From Candidatus Nitrosopumilus sp. SW (GTDB lineage: Archaea > Thermoproteota > Nitrososphaeria > Nitrososphaerales > Nitrosopumilaceae), in assembly GCF_006740685.1 (NCBI RefSeq), contig NZ_CP035425.1:1341687-1405686 (forward strand): DNA of 64,000 nt, in the 5' to 3' direction. Below the pieces are notes generated by a model, which saw only the letters and a program-made list of their open reading frames with translations, made no database searches and was not told the DNA's origin. Shown here one piece after another: positions 15,756 through 64,000 of this stretch. Numbering within the stretch: the stretch's first letter is position 1; every line of letters begins with the position of its first letter. The translations under genes were made by a program, and so were the position numbers.

Positions 15756-18416
15756 TCAAGGACCAGAGCCACCCATTTGGGCCTCATTTCCTGCAGGATT
15801 AACTCCAGTCAACTCATAAAATGCATCCACCTGACTTTGAGTCAACCATGTATTGTATGATGGAACTTCAGATACTTTGCCAAATCCACAATTCTCAGGA
15901 TCAGGATCTTCTATTCCAGTCAATTCCAAATTAACTGCATGGCCTGAATTTGTATGATAGTGCCACGCATTATCGCACTCTCCATCCCATTGCCATAAAG
16001 TAAACTGAGAAATTGGATATTGGACTCCACCAATTTCTAAAATTGTGAGTGAAGATAATTGTTCCATTTCACCACCTTCATCAATTTCTACCTCAGTCCC
16101 ATCTATGTCGTCTTGTTCATCACCAACTCGCACTTCACTGGGCTCACTAAGATCTAAAACTACTATTTTTTGCAAGTCATCGGCAATTGAATCAAAATCA
16201 TCTTCACCTTGTTCTACCATATCTTTTCCCAATTCATCATTTGAAGAAAATTGTATTCCTATGGAAGTAACAGAAACGTTTTCTTGCCCTAGACCTAGAA
16301 TGTTAAAAACACCTATTACAATATCGTCTCCTTGTGAAACCAAATTACCGGTATCTGAATGTGATGAAACTTCTATAGATCCTAAATCAATTGCTATTGT
16401 GTTAATTCTAGTTATTTCTGAATTTTCTCCTACAATAGTAAATTCCAGTACTTTCAACTCCTCGCCTGGGATGTTTGTAATTTTTGTATCGAAATTATAA
16501 GAAGTGATGGTAGCTGGCGAATACACATTTAGATGAAAAACAGCCATATCTTTTTCTGATTTTGCTTTCTTTAGTGCATCTTGTGCTTTTACATAACCAT
16601 CGTTAATGCTGATAAGATCGTCTCTAACTGACTCAATCAAAATTTCTTGTTGTTCAACACTTTTTTCAAGTTCCAAAATTGGAATGTTGATTTTATTTGC
16701 AATTTCCTCTATTGATGTGATTTGTTGTTGTGTATTTTTGAGAATAGAAACAGAGTTCTTCAAATCCGTATCAGTTTTGTCTTTTAATGTCTGCATTTTT
16801 TGTGCAAGTTCTTGATTCTCAGAGGTTTTTTCTTCAGAGTAAATATCCCATGCAGCATCACTTGCCTCATCAAAAATTTCTGATTCTAAATTCTTTGTTT
16901 CTAAAAGATACGTAAATGCTAACTCATTCCATTTTTGTTCCTTGTATAAATTAAAAATAAAATCTTGACTAATCTCTATTGTGTCTATTTGTTTTTGTTT
17001 TTCCTTAAATGAAATAATCTCTTCTTTCATCATAAACTGTATTCCTTGCTTGAAATCATTATCAGAAATTGCTCCAGCAACCCACCAGTCCGCATTATTT
17101 CGAATCCATTGAGGAATTGCAATGTTGTCACTAATTGCTATTGTACCCTGGGAATCAACTTCGACATTATCTACTTGAACAATTTGTTCTTTGACTAAAA
17201 ATGCCAAAGATGTTGCAAATTCTCTGTCACTAACAATTCCATCTGCCCACCATTGAGCAGAAGTTTTTATCCACTGAGGTAAAGAAGATTCTTCTTTAGG
17301 TTCAATGTCATAGATGGCTAAAAATGCATCTTCATATTTATCAAGAGATTCAATATATTTTCCTTGAGAAGCTAATGATTGAGCTTCAAGTGCAAAATCA
17401 TTAGCGATTGATTTTTGTGTGCTATCTGATTCGGAGGAAATGGTGTCATAAATGGCATCTGCATAATCTACAACTATGCTAGGAGTTTTTTGTTTGAGTT
17501 GTTCAAATTCTAAATCTGTTGTTTCAGTTAATCCTTCTTCTTTTTGAGAATCTGAATTGAGACGAATTACATCTTTAGAAGAAGAAATAAAATCATCTAC
17601 TGAAGCAGCTAGTGCAAATTGATCTGTTGTAGGAATTTGAATGGAGCTTGCAACTTCTTTTTCTTCTTTTGGTAAGCATTCTCCATTAGGATCATCTACG
17701 GGCTCTGTAATCACGGACCAACGAATTTCAGCACCCCCATCATCTCCCTTTAATTTTGTAACAATGTTTGATTGGGGTTTTTCTATTGTATCATTTTTAA
17801 TCCCTAAATGATCATCACCATTTAATCCCGCAATGAAAGTGGCAATACCTGCAACTGCAACTGCTTTTCCTGTAACAACCCACCCTCCAGGACCAAATGC
17901 AAGAGCTGCCCCTGCAACAGTTGTAGCACCACCAATAACCGTATTTGCAGTAGATTGATCAGATTCTCTAAGATCAAATGTGTATGTAATTGGACTCATT
18001 TCAGAACATTCAATGTGCTCATAAAGAACTTCATTTCGAAAATTTTTTACTGGTTCTTCAAACCATCGGTAACAACTCCACGTTGAATCAGGCCTTGATT
18101 CTGAATGGCATGTTGTTAGTCGATAATCCATATAGTTATGATCATAGTCTTTATGATCTTTGAAATTTTCATCATGTCCTTTATGATTAAAAACATAACT
18201 GAAAACAAGTTCTGCTTCCCCTGCATCAATAGGGTCATCTTGGTTTTCATTTAATTTGATACTCTCAAGTATTACTTTGACTTTGATTTTTGGAGCATGT
18301 GCTCCTGGAGGATCATTTGGATTGCTATTATTGTGTGCAAATGCCTGAGAATTTGCAAGAATTGAAGAAGATAAAAGGATTAATGAAAATAAAATAACTG
18401 AAAACTCTTTTTTCAA
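15756..18416 (-). CDS. Large secreted protein with tandem WW-rich repeats and coiled coil
   Basis: An 886-aa exported protein. A signal peptide is plain at residues 1-27 (basic start, FSVILFSLILLSSSIL core, then QAFAH). A Gly/Ala-rich hydrophobic stretch lies near 160-195. Two copies of a domain found in many thaumarchaeal surface proteins follow at about 385-420 and 437-475 (LPQWIKTSAQWWADG and IPQWIRNNADWWVAG). A coiled coil spans ~520-620, then a beta-rich region, an acidic segment (~770) and a C-terminus rich in Trp, His and Cys. It is probably cell-surface bound. No enzymatic motif was recognised. Confidence 0.85.
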   Translation of the reverse strand: MKKEFSVILFSLILLSSSILANSQAFAHNNSNPNDPPGAHAPKIKVKVILESIKLNENQDDPIDAGEAELVFSYVFNHKGHDENFKDHKDYDHNYMDYRLTTCHSESRPDSTWSCYRWFEEPVKNFRNEVLYEHIECSEMSPITYTFDLRESDQSTANTVIGGATTVAGAALAFGPGGWVVTGKAVAVAGIATFIAGLNGDDHLGIKNDTIEKPQSNIVTKLKGDDGGAEIRWSVITEPVDDPNGECLPKEEKEVASSIQIPTTDQFALAASVDDFISSSKDVIRLNSDSQKEEGLTETTDLEFEQLKQKTPSIVVDYADAIYDTISSESDSTQKSIANDFALEAQSLASQGKYIESLDKYEDAFLAIYDIEPKEESSLPQWIKTSAQWWADGIVSDREFATSLAFLVKEQIVQVDNVEVDSQGTIAISDNIAIPQWIRNNADWWVAGAISDNDFKQGIQFMMKEEIISFKEKQKQIDTIEISQDFIFNLYKEQKWNELAFTYLLETKNLESEIFDEASDAAWDIYSEEKTSENQELAQKMQTLKDKTDTDLKNSVSILKNTQQQITSIEEIANKINIPILELEKSVEQQEILIESVRDDLISINDGYVKAQDALKKAKSEKDMAVFHLNVYSPATITSYNFDTKITNIPGEELKVLEFTIVGENSEITRINTIAIDLGSIEVSSHSDTGNLVSQGDDIVIGVFNILGLGQENVSVTSIGIQFSSNDELGKDMVEQGEDDFDSIADDLQKIVVLDLSEPSEVRVGDEQDDIDGTEVEIDEGGEMEQLSSLTILEIGGVQYPISQFTLWQWDGECDNAWHYHTNSGHAVNLELTGIEDPDPENCGFGKVSEVPSYNTWLTQSQVDAFYELTGVNPAGNEAQMGGSGP

Positions 18417-42847: not shown

Positions 42848-43297
42848 CTATCTTGGTGGTTCTTTCTTGATTCTGTAGATGTTTCTTTTAGAAAGTACAA
42901 TTGTTTCTCCTTCGTTATCTGTTCCTTCATAATCTACTGCAATCTTTCCAAATTCATCATCAATATCTTCAATTTGTGATATTGTAAATTTTAATTTTAA
43001 AACTTGATCTGTGTGTAATGGTTTGAGAAATCGTGTGTTTCTATTTTTCCATTCTGGATCTCCATCTGTTCCAAGAAAAATAATGTGGTTTCCATAAATC
43101 TGACTTAGTCTTGTGAACTCTCCTTCCATTCTTGATAATATTGCACGCCCTGAAACAATCTGCTCTCCCTTTTGCTTGTCTTCTAGGAATGCATTTCTAA
43201 CTCTTGAAAAATTTAGATACTCTTCTAATTCTTTCTCTGAAATACTGCATGTGGATTGAAATGTGTCTCCTACTCTGAATTCAGAAAATTTTTTCAT
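42848..43297 (-). CDS. MaoC-like (R)-hydratase
   Basis: A 149-aa hot-dog-fold protein with VGDTFQSTCSISEKELEEYL at the N-terminus and, further on, GEQIVSGRAILSRMEGEFTRL plus VDYEGTDNEGETIVLSK. This is the MaoC dehydratase pattern; the catalytic Asp-x4-His signature is not clearly preserved, so enzymatic activity is not assured. The gene is directly downstream of a tandem-SDR gene (2 nt apart), suggesting a shared acyl-CoA or keto-acid pathway. Confidence 0.7.
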   Translation of the reverse strand: MKKFSEFRVGDTFQSTCSISEKELEEYLNFSRVRNAFLEDKQKGEQIVSGRAILSRMEGEFTRLSQIYGNHIIFLGTDGDPEWKNRNTRFLKPLHTDQVLKLKFTISQIEDIDDEFGKIAVDYEGTDNEGETIVLSKRNIYRIKKEPPR

Positions 43298-43299
43298 TC

Positions 43300-45066
43300 T
43301 TATCTTGATTCATCAACACAGAAAGTTACTTCAGATGATGAAGCTGCATTTTCTGATACAAGGAAATTAAATGCGTCTGCAATCTTTTGATTGTCTGGTT
43401 CTATACCTGTAACAGAACCTGGGAAAACAGTAAACATTCTGATTTTAGATTTTAGAACATCACTTAATTCTTGATTAACTGTAGTTGTAAATGGTCTTAA
43501 TGCTCCTCTGAAAACTTCTACTTGAGCTCTTTGAGTGCCAGTAACTTTTCTTCCTACTGGTAAATCTGGACCAATTATCATAATGGCGCCTGTTGTATCT
43601 TTGAAGAGTCTTGGATCCTTTCCTCCTCCTGGAACAAACTGTTCTAGTGCTCTTTGTGCAACAGTTGCAGGAGTTGAGATGAATTTTGCTACTAGTTCTT
43701 CCCATCCTTCTCTAGTCAAGTCTGTTAAGTTTCCTACTTCTGGTAGTTTTCCTGTAACATGAACTACTGCTAGAATTTCTCCAATGTTTGTTTTAGCTGT
43801 GTTTAGCCATCTTTCTACCTCTTCAGGATTTTTGATATCTACTACATGAGAGTGGAACTTGCTACTGATTGAATCCTGAATTTCTTGAGGAGTTGATTGT
43901 GAAATAAAACATGCAACTTTACCGCCATTTTTCTCAATGTGTCCTGCCAAAAATTCTACTCTTTCTGCATCTGCTTTGTCTGTTCCATCAATAGTAAATA
44001 CTACTGCCTTTCCTGTAAAGTCTGGTTGATGAACTCCTGGAGTTGTAGTTCCGATGTGTGGTTTTACTGGATAAAATACTCTATCTCCTGGAATTACTTT
44101 ACCGTTGAGAATTTTTGCAATTTCATCATCACACAAGTTCAGAACTGATTCAGCAACTTGTGATTGTGACAAAAATTCTCTGTTTGCAATCATATGTGAT
44201 GTATTGTTTTGAACTTTCTCTGCTATAGTTTGAATTTTGGTTAATAGATTTGTAAATGTCTCTGTTAGTTTTGCAACATCTCTTCCGTTTGCTAATTTCT
44301 CTGCAGTTTTTGCAATTCCTTCTTTATCAATTCCATCTGCTTGTATACATTCTAACAAATCATCTTTTGCTTCTTCGACTTCTACTGGAGTCAAGTCTTC
44401 AAATCCACTTACTCTCATAAATTCTGCTGCTGCTTTTGGATATACAGTTTTGTAAATTCTATCTGAATGAACTGGACCAGGATTTGTTGCAATTGATATG
44501 ATTCCTTTATCAGTTAATTCCCATGACATACATTCAGCTAACCTATTTTTTGCACCTTGTGATGCCGTATATGGACTTCTAAATCTGTAGGGTCTTTGCT
44601 CTAGTGGTCTTTCTTCAGTAAAGAATGTTGAAATTGTAATTATTTTTCCTCCCTCTTTCATTACTTTTAGTGCTTGAACTGAACCCCAAAATGTTCCAGT
44701 CAAATGAATTCCAATTGTACTTTTGAATTCATCTAATGGTGAATTTGCAAAACATGTGACAGGACCTGATACTCCTGCATTATTAATTATGTAATCTACA
44801 TTTGTTCCCTCATTTTTTAGAGTGTCAAACATTTCATTCATTGCTGTTTCATCTGCAACATCTACACCTGCAAAAATTTTGACTGTTGCGTTTGTACCTT
44901 GTGGGATTTTTCCTTCAAGCTCTTTTGCAGCTTCTTGCAATGGCTCTTTTCTTCTACCAAGAATAATCACACTTGCACCATTTTCTACAAATTTTGTTGC
45001 AATGGCTTTTCCAATACCTGTTCCGCTTCCTGTAACTAGTGCGACTTTGTCTTGGAATTTCAGCAA
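43300..45066 (-). CDS. Tandem-SDR protein resembling the N-terminal half of malonyl-CoA reductase
   Basis: The 588-aa product has an SDR domain at ~1-270 (TGSGTGIG at 12-19, NNAG at 95-98, S146) and a second degenerate SDR-like domain at ~340-588. Double-SDR layout, a middle linker and the NPGPVHSDRIYKTV stretch recall the N-terminal half of Chloroflexus malonyl-CoA reductase, which reduces malonate semialdehyde. The active-site YxxxK reads Y166-TAS-Q170, so the Lys is Gln, although K173 is three residues on. The second domain lacks a clear GxxxGxG. Function is therefore uncertain: an oxidoreductase of CO2-fixation type or a structural relative. Paired with a MaoC-like hydratase. Confidence 0.7.
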   Translation of the reverse strand: MLKFQDKVALVTGSGTGIGKAIATKFVENGASVIILGRRKEPLQEAAKELEGKIPQGTNATVKIFAGVDVADETAMNEMFDTLKNEGTNVDYIINNAGVSGPVTCFANSPLDEFKSTIGIHLTGTFWGSVQALKVMKEGGKIITISTFFTEERPLEQRPYRFRSPYTASQGAKNRLAECMSWELTDKGIISIATNPGPVHSDRIYKTVYPKAAAEFMRVSGFEDLTPVEVEEAKDDLLECIQADGIDKEGIAKTAEKLANGRDVAKLTETFTNLLTKIQTIAEKVQNNTSHMIANREFLSQSQVAESVLNLCDDEIAKILNGKVIPGDRVFYPVKPHIGTTTPGVHQPDFTGKAVVFTIDGTDKADAERVEFLAGHIEKNGGKVACFISQSTPQEIQDSISSKFHSHVVDIKNPEEVERWLNTAKTNIGEILAVVHVTGKLPEVGNLTDLTREGWEELVAKFISTPATVAQRALEQFVPGGGKDPRLFKDTTGAIMIIGPDLPVGRKVTGTQRAQVEVFRGALRPFTTTVNQELSDVLKSKIRMFTVFPGSVTGIEPDNQKIADAFNFLVSENAASSSEVTFCVDESR

Positions 45067-54183: not shown

Positions 54184-55323
54184 TTACTGCATGGATACAA
54201 GTAGTGGGTCTGGTTTGTAGAATTCACCGTGCTCTTCGGCAAGCTTGTTTAACTCATCTACAATATTTTTGATGCCTATCTCTTTTGCAGTCTCAAATAA
54301 TGGCTTTTTTAATCCTAAACCTAACTGAGCAGCTTTTTCAATTTCATCAATGTCGCTTGCTCCATTTGTTACAAGCCATGCTGCGTTGTTTAGAATGTTT
54401 GCGACAAGTTGAATTGGATTGCATTTCTCTGCTAATTCTTCAGATAGTGCCACTCTTTCATATTTGTCATCAGAATATTTGTAATAACCTTCTCCAGATT
54501 TTTGTCCCAGTTTTTTCTCATCAAACATTTTTTCAACTAGTGGATGTGGATTGATTACTTTTTTGTCTCTCAAATGCATTTCAACTGTTGCTTTGTGAAT
54601 AACATCCATACCTGTAAAATCTGCTAACTCAAAGATGCCCATTGGAAATCCTAGTTTGAATTTAACTGCTGAATCAATTTCTTCAAGAGTTGCACCTGTT
54701 CTGTCTTTAACAAAACATGCTTCATGAACCATTGGGATGAATAGTCTGTTAATGATAAAACCTGGAACATCTTTTCTACACAAAACTGCTTGTTTGTTAA
54801 CTGACTTTACATAATCTTTAGTCAAATCCGTAACTTCTTGAGATGTTTTTTCACCTGGAATCACTTCTACCAATTTCATAAGTTGTGGGGGATTGAAGAA
54901 ATGAATTCCTATGAACTTCTCTGGTCTTGATGTTGTATTTGCAATCTCTGTAATTGGTAGGGTGCTTGTGTTTGATGCAAAGATAACTTCTGGTGCAGCA
55001 ACTTCATCAAGTTCTGCATATACCTTTTTCTTCAAATCCATAATTTCTGGAACTACCTCGATTACCAATTCTGCATCTTTCACTGCTTCTTTCAAATCTA
55101 CAACTGGTTTAATTCTGCCAAAAATTGCATCTCCTTCTTCTTTTGAAATTTTTTCTTTTGAAACTAGTTTATCTAAACTCCATCTGATTTTTTCCATGGC
55201 CTTGTCCAAAAATTCTTGTTTGATGTCTCTTAGAACGATGTTGTATCCTGCTGTGGCTGAAACTTGGGCAATACCGTGTCCCATCACTCCTGAACCCAAG
55301 ACTGTGATATTTTTTATCGTCAT
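54184..55323 (-). CDS. 3-hydroxyacyl-CoA dehydrogenase
   Basis: A 379-aa enzyme with NAD motif VLGSGVMGHGIAQ at ~9-21, catalytic-region IHFFNPPQLMKLVEVIPG (~140-157, His-Glu pair) and the C-terminal 3HCDH domain (VPGFIINRLFIP and GFPMGIFELADFTGMDV). It oxidises (S)-3-hydroxybutyryl-CoA or similar to the ketone. In thaumarchaea this step belongs to the 3-hydroxypropionate/4-hydroxybutyrate CO2-fixation cycle, and a role there is a fair inference. A second C-terminal domain repeat extends the protein past the common ~290 aa. Confidence 0.9.
   Translation of the reverse strand: MTIKNITVLGSGVMGHGIAQVSATAGYNIVLRDIKQEFLDKAMEKIRWSLDKLVSKEKISKEEGDAIFGRIKPVVDLKEAVKDAELVIEVVPEIMDLKKKVYAELDEVAAPEVIFASNTSTLPITEIANTTSRPEKFIGIHFFNPPQLMKLVEVIPGEKTSQEVTDLTKDYVKSVNKQAVLCRKDVPGFIINRLFIPMVHEACFVKDRTGATLEEIDSAVKFKLGFPMGIFELADFTGMDVIHKATVEMHLRDKKVINPHPLVEKMFDEKKLGQKSGEGYYKYSDDKYERVALSEELAEKCNPIQLVANILNNAAWLVTNGASDIDEIEKAAQLGLGLKKPLFETAKEIGIKNIVDELNKLAEEHGEFYKPDPLLVSMQ

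Positions 55324-62926: not shown

Positions 62927-64000
<1,074 letters not shown>

Follow-up and report, generated by a model that had tools for sequence, protein, structure and literature searches.

A tandem-SDR protein conserved in ammonia-oxidizing archaea is a candidate for the missing malonyl-CoA reductase of their 3-hydroxypropionate/4-hydroxybutyrate cycle

The 64,000-nucleotide stretch of the Candidatus Nitrosopumilus sp. SW genome that we analysed (the window) carries on its minus strand, at positions 43300..45066, a gene for a tandem-SDR protein whose family is conserved among ammonia-oxidizing archaea (AOA) and is found in nearly every AOA examined. We propose, with a probability of roughly 0.58 and on the strength of a predicted fold and an active-site motif, that this protein is the missing stand-alone malonyl-CoA reductase (MCR) of the AOA 3-hydroxypropionate/4-hydroxybutyrate cycle, NADPH-dependent and of altered chemistry; that it would be related to the bifunctional enzyme of bacteria but have a single activity, and work without the canonical SDR lysine (Gln170/Lys173), is in our judgement a little better than an even bet. 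AOA rank with the most abundant autotrophs of ocean and soil, and their malonyl-CoA reduction step has so far had no assigned gene; since the candidate is one strictly conserved gene, the question becomes directly testable.

Malonyl-CoA reductase activity has been shown in extracts of Nitrosopumilus maritimus with the gene left unidentified (PMC6038301, PMC6964070), and a marker set of 2026 has no marker for malonyl-CoA reduction in the AOA variant of the cycle (PMC12894919), all of which agrees with the remark in a first-pass annotation of the window that this step lacked a clear gene in thaumarchaea. The malonic semialdehyde reductase of N. maritimus is a separate and characterised enzyme, the iron alcohol dehydrogenase Nmar_1110 (PMC5797428), so that a single-activity half of MCR is what the AOA cycle lacks. 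In the host genome (1.50 Mb, single contig) we found two genes of the Fe-ADH family and only two of the semialdehyde-dehydrogenase family, of which, on reading, one appears to be an Asd and the other, with LysX/LysZ-like ORFs next to it, a LysY/ArgC, leaving no spare MCR of the Sulfolobales type. The Sulfolobales malonyl-CoA/succinyl-CoA reductase, which would catalyse the same step, is Asd-like and of a fold family unrelated to the tandem SDR. Nothing in the literature searched, mostly without subscription papers, names the present family as the AOA malonyl-CoA reductase; a Nitrosocaldus paper pointed to SDRs that share about 30% identity with the Chloroflexus enzyme as candidate malonic semialdehyde reductases (PMC5797428).

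The gene is an ORF of 588 codons with a TTG start, in whose translation Pfam recognises two SDR stretches and in which the NPGPVHSDRI and YTASQ stretches are present as the first-pass annotation had described them; among the NCBIfam models listed none reaches its cutoff, and only a generic SDR name results. The first SDR domain (residues 1-204; 44455..45066, minus strand, as are all parts of the gene) is of the catalytic type, with a putative NADPH site made of TGSGTGIG and R38/R39, and contains both the active-site motif Y160-RF-R163-SP-Y166-TAS-Q170-GA-K173 (44548..44589) and, at its end, the PVHSDRI stretch with R203 (44455..44475). A predicted helical insert follows (residues 205-300; 44167..44454) in the place of the extra domain of MCR, its helices being modelled at 203-219, 227-239, 248-258 and 264-289 and its length read from the sequences as about 97 residues, against about 150 in the C-terminal half of MCR (MCR-C) and 45 in the N-terminal half (MCR-N). 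The second SDR-like domain (residues 345-588; 43303..44034) is of the non-catalytic type: TGxxxGxG occurs in 0/133 homologues, the domains SDR2 and SDR4 of MCR are likewise without a nucleotide motif, and it is with SDR4 that this domain superposes within the full-length match of the predicted fold. A classical, FabG-like SDR is a single domain of about 250 residues with the motifs TGxxxGxG and YxxxK, whereas here there are two domains in 588 residues and YxxxK is absent.

A first likeness to MCR lies in the predicted fold. An AlphaFold2 model built without template from 26 sequences reached a pLDDT of 75.7 and a pTM of 0.80; the active-site loops 149-162 and 201-209 are poorly predicted, and for that reason we claim no active-site geometry. 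When the model was compared by Foldseek with 350,542 PDB chains, the top 24 matches were all MCR, with the C-terminal domains ranking first (8i70 best, E 1.7e-23; TMq 0.67-0.73 over the full length), the N-terminal domains next (E about 1e-21, TMq 0.66-0.68), and the first non-MCR match, the tandem SDR 2et6, well behind at a TMq of 0.56 and an rmsd of 16.6. Single SDRs gave a TMq of about 0.35, and a TM-score twice this one-domain value indicates that both domains superpose together; the predicted model has the fold and the arrangement SDR3, extra domain, SDR4 of MCR-C. The protein 2et6, the dehydrogenase of peroxisomal multifunctional enzyme 2, also has two SDR domains per chain but arranges them differently and is a 3-hydroxyacyl-CoA dehydrogenase.

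The first-pass annotation had likened the protein to the N-terminal half of MCR, for which the C-terminal, acyl-CoA-reducing half must be substituted as the slightly better match; Chloroflexus MCR does have a double-SDR half, as it stated, but not in its N-terminal half alone, since both halves are double SDRs (PMC10470521). With MCR-C (Chloroflexus aurantiacus 8i70/8a30, Porphyrobacter 6k8s, Roseiflexus 8hi5) the archaeal protein shares the succession of SDR, helical insert and degenerate SDR, the YxxRxxY malonate motif, the arginine of GPVxxDR and an NADP-type fold. It differs in being stand-alone and shorter, in its shorter insert, in having Gln170/Lys173 where MCR-C has Lys/Gln, in an identity of only about 18-20% by structural alignment, and in a second half without MCR-specific sequence similarity. 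MCR-N (8hi6, 6k8v, 8aew) is likewise a tandem SDR with YxxRxxY (PMC10470521), but it reduces the semialdehyde, has a shorter insert than the AOA protein and keeps the Lys.

It would be conceivable that the AOA protein is an alcohol-dehydrogenase-type SDR like MCR-N and that its substrate is malonate semialdehyde or another acid aldehyde related to it. The N-terminal domains score close behind the C-terminal ones, YxxRxxY binds the semialdehyde in SDR1, the members of one archaeal family of the order, f2, match SDR1 best in a pairwise search, and f2 and f56 are without a strong iron-alcohol-dehydrogenase match. We nevertheless consider this improbable, given that the MCR C-domains score best, that MCR-N has a shorter helical insert, and that Nmar_1110 is already characterised for that step (PMC5797428), yet families f1 and f3 keep both genes. 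As an observation in its own right, genomes of f2 and f56 (e.g. G224, G276, G352) keep the tandem SDR while being without the strong iron-alcohol-dehydrogenase match of f1/f3, presumably the malonic semialdehyde reductase, and the second reduction may there be carried out by the tandem SDR or by another enzyme.

A second line of evidence for a malonyl-CoA reductase is the active-site motif. In bacterial MCR malonyl-CoA reduction belongs to the C-terminal half, and in the Roseiflexus enzyme the residues that hold the malonate moiety are Y743, R746 and Y749, which make up a YxxRxxY motif that SDR1 and SDR3 have in common, whereas CoA is bound, according to simulation, by R799 and R1164 (PMC10470521). 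This motif aligns with Y160-R163-Y166 of the tandem SDR (Y731-R734-Y737, followed by K741, in Chloroflexus MCR, whose query sequence equals PDB 8hjw over 1219 residues) and is kept in 133/133 homologues. It is absent from 47 control SDRs, namely 35 scorable archaeal SDR ORFs and 12 plasmid SDRs picked from the best matches of either the AOA protein or MCR, two of these 12 having the Arg of the motif without its first Tyr. R203, within a stretch that aligns with GPVEGDR, corresponds to Chloroflexus R773, and both R773 and Y731 have been mutated by PDB depositors, as the entry titles tell. Y160, R163, Y166, Q170, K173, H200-R203 and R218 are invariant in all 133 homologues, the most distant of which are about 44% identical. 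The invariant Arg218, Arg520 and Arg524 lie near the places expected for the equivalents of R799 (extra domain) and R1164 (SDR4), in regions where the alignment is too unreliable for a confident mapping.

An alternative within the AOA cycle is an MCR-like reductase whose substrate is succinyl-CoA, or both dicarboxylyl-CoAs. Succinyl-CoA, too, would fit the carboxylate-binding motif, and the succinyl-CoA reductase of AOA is also listed as unidentified (PMC6038301, PMC4510362); the structural relatives, as far as they are known, are enzymes of malonyl-CoA, and we regard this alternative as unlikely.

The residue that sets the family apart is the lysine of YxxxK, which, as the first-pass annotation noted, is missing and stands here as Gln170. 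The Roseiflexus enzyme has a catalytic triad S731-Y749-K753, and exchanging S731, Y749, K753 or R799 for Ala abolishes activity (PMC10470521); of this Ser-Tyr-Lys triad the AOA proteins keep the Tyr, with Thr147 in place of Ser and Gln170 in place of Lys in all 133. The caution that the altered motif had called for is justified inasmuch as a Lys-to-Ala change kills the Roseiflexus enzyme, but the Gln is family-wide, which rules out a local mutation or a sequencing error and, as we read the alignment, makes Gln170 a family trait, which on its own does not point to an inactive protein. After the catalytic Tyr, SDR3 of MCR has Lys at +4 and Gln at +7, whereas the AOA protein has Gln at +4 and Lys at +7, a reversal of order that we infer may be a functional swap.

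Sequence comparison is less discriminating than the fold. Alignment with MCR and structure prediction, both proposed in the first-pass annotation, gave a fold that matches MCR and pairwise similarities that do not separate it from FabG-like SDRs: in pairwise and HMM searches with the first domain, FabG-like SDRs score as high as MCR per domain, MCR leading only because both SDR halves match, and we therefore rejected sequence similarity alone as proof of kinship. In a search of the host genome, Chloroflexus MCR likewise scored 62.7 bits against the tandem SDR and 61.8 against a FabG-like SDR, near-equal values that may be the reason why this family was passed over. The second half scores hardly above shuffled sequence against MCR in hhalign, with no MCR-specific profile similarity (the MCR sequences compared being one full-length sequence and pieces of a second). 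In a tree with the 47 SDRs, the AOA protein groups with the MCR domains with support 97/90, and with SDR3 with 94/50; removing the active-site stretch, along with all columns from the start of the GPVHSDR motif onwards, abolishes the AOA+MCR clade. Since the clade depends on active-site columns and the second half is unspecific, the case rests on fold and motif, and there is better support for a protein that works like MCR-C than for one that shares descent with MCR. The control set for the trees left out the piece from L118, a split AOA copy; in this locus, from a Ca. Nitrosomaritimum khambatensis MAG, the SDR gene lies in two ORFs, possibly through an assembly or sequencing error.

The distribution of the family follows that of AmoA. 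A strong match, mostly of full length, is present in 60/61 genomes of the same taxonomic family (the exception, G041, is a draft of 93% completeness), and the gene recurs, with 46-51% identity, in three other families of the order, f2, f3 and f56. Across 150 genomes of the order, AmoA and the tandem SDR are each present in 110, with 109 genomes having both, 39 neither and two being discordant, G420 (tandem SDR, no AmoA) and G435 (AmoA, no tandem SDR), both of them multi-contig drafts. The tandem SDR was not found in families of the order or class that are without AmoA or outside the AOA families, nor in the other sampled members of the phylum. The AOA being of one shared ancestry, the co-occurrence may go back to a single gain; it is consistent with a role in the AOA cycle but does not prove one. 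A plasmid collection held no full-length MCR and no AOA homologue of the tandem SDR, and IMG/VR gave only SDR matches with 22-30% identity to the first domain. Taken with fold and motif, the distribution strengthens the link to MCR and to the gap in the AOA cycle that had been drawn from the DNA letters, with the half (C-terminal, not N-terminal) and the meaning of the Lys change revised. HpaB_N, the 4-hydroxybutyryl-CoA dehydratase family, was tried as a sharper distribution profile and proved uninformative, being broader than AOA; its occurrence in many non-ammonia-oxidizing relatives (e.g. in f4: G327, G379) makes it, alone, a poor marker of a complete carbon cycle.

Gene neighbourhood contributes little. 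In the genome that we take as N. maritimus SCM1, from an exact match to the published Nmar_1028 primer, the orthologue (95% identical; G039 917089-918852) lies downstream of Nmar_1028, at a distance of 12.7 kb, Nmar_1028 being the 3-hydroxybutyryl-CoA dehydrogenase of the AOA cycle; in the window, operon linkage with cycle genes was rejected, since nothing but a 3-hydroxyacyl-CoA dehydrogenase ORF (54184-55323), on the same minus strand and about 9 kb off, provides a loose tie. A 149-residue ORF (42848..43297, minus strand) does start 2 nt after the tandem-SDR ORF, the spacing first given for it. Its description as a MaoC-like hydratase is right as to the fold, a MaoC-type hot-dog fold in the AlphaFold model (TM about 0.6-0.7 against 1q6w and 4ffu), and not as to the hydratase motif D-x-N-x-x-H, which was not seen and in whose place stands FSRVRNAF; no Pfam family, MaoC included, matches above cutoff. 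The 149-residue family has an invariant motif of its own, SGRA..SR.EGEFTRL.QIYGN, in place of the hydratase dyad. In a comparison of loci the gene adjoins the tandem SDR in 99 and was not found beside it in 31 more whose sequence reached far enough, among them every f2 and f3 locus examined; an obligate partnership is thus rejected, and adjacency limited to part of the Nitrosopumilaceae is no evidence on function or pathway.

That f2 and f3 loci have no conserved neighbours, together with the missing YxxxK Lys and the generic sequence scores, would also fit an AOA-specific SDR that has kept an MCR-like architecture while having some other redox function or none, for instance in the metabolism of lipids or cofactors or as a non-catalytic scaffold. 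With the NADPH site and the malonate motif strictly invariant and the predicted fold of MCR type over its full length, we find this doubtful.

For a malonyl-CoA reductase, the reading that we prefer, substrate, direction, cofactor and residue roles are inferred as follows. The first SDR domain would bind NADPH through TGSGTGIG and R38/R39; Y160, R163, Y166 and R203 would hold the free carboxylate end of malonyl-CoA, with the wall that binds CoA formed by the helical insert together with the second, degenerate SDR domain; the NADPH hydride would attack the thioester carbonyl and CoA would leave, the role of the YxxxK Lys being perhaps taken over by K173, one helical turn on, or by R163; and malonate semialdehyde would be released for a different enzyme to take up, in N. 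maritimus the iron alcohol dehydrogenase Nmar_1110. If this is true, the gene would provide a marker of the AOA cycle for a step that current marker sets leave blank, the protein would be a natural single-activity MCR of interest for 3-hydroxypropionate production, and the archaeal and Chloroflexus 3-hydroxypropionate routes would be joined at one enzyme family.

Two further features of the window may be recorded. An ORF of 886 codons at 15756-18416 (minus strand) has no Pfam match at 1e-5, and the start of an archaeal 16S rRNA gene, cut by the window end (62927-64000, plus strand), accounts for the rise in G+C to 0.44 there.
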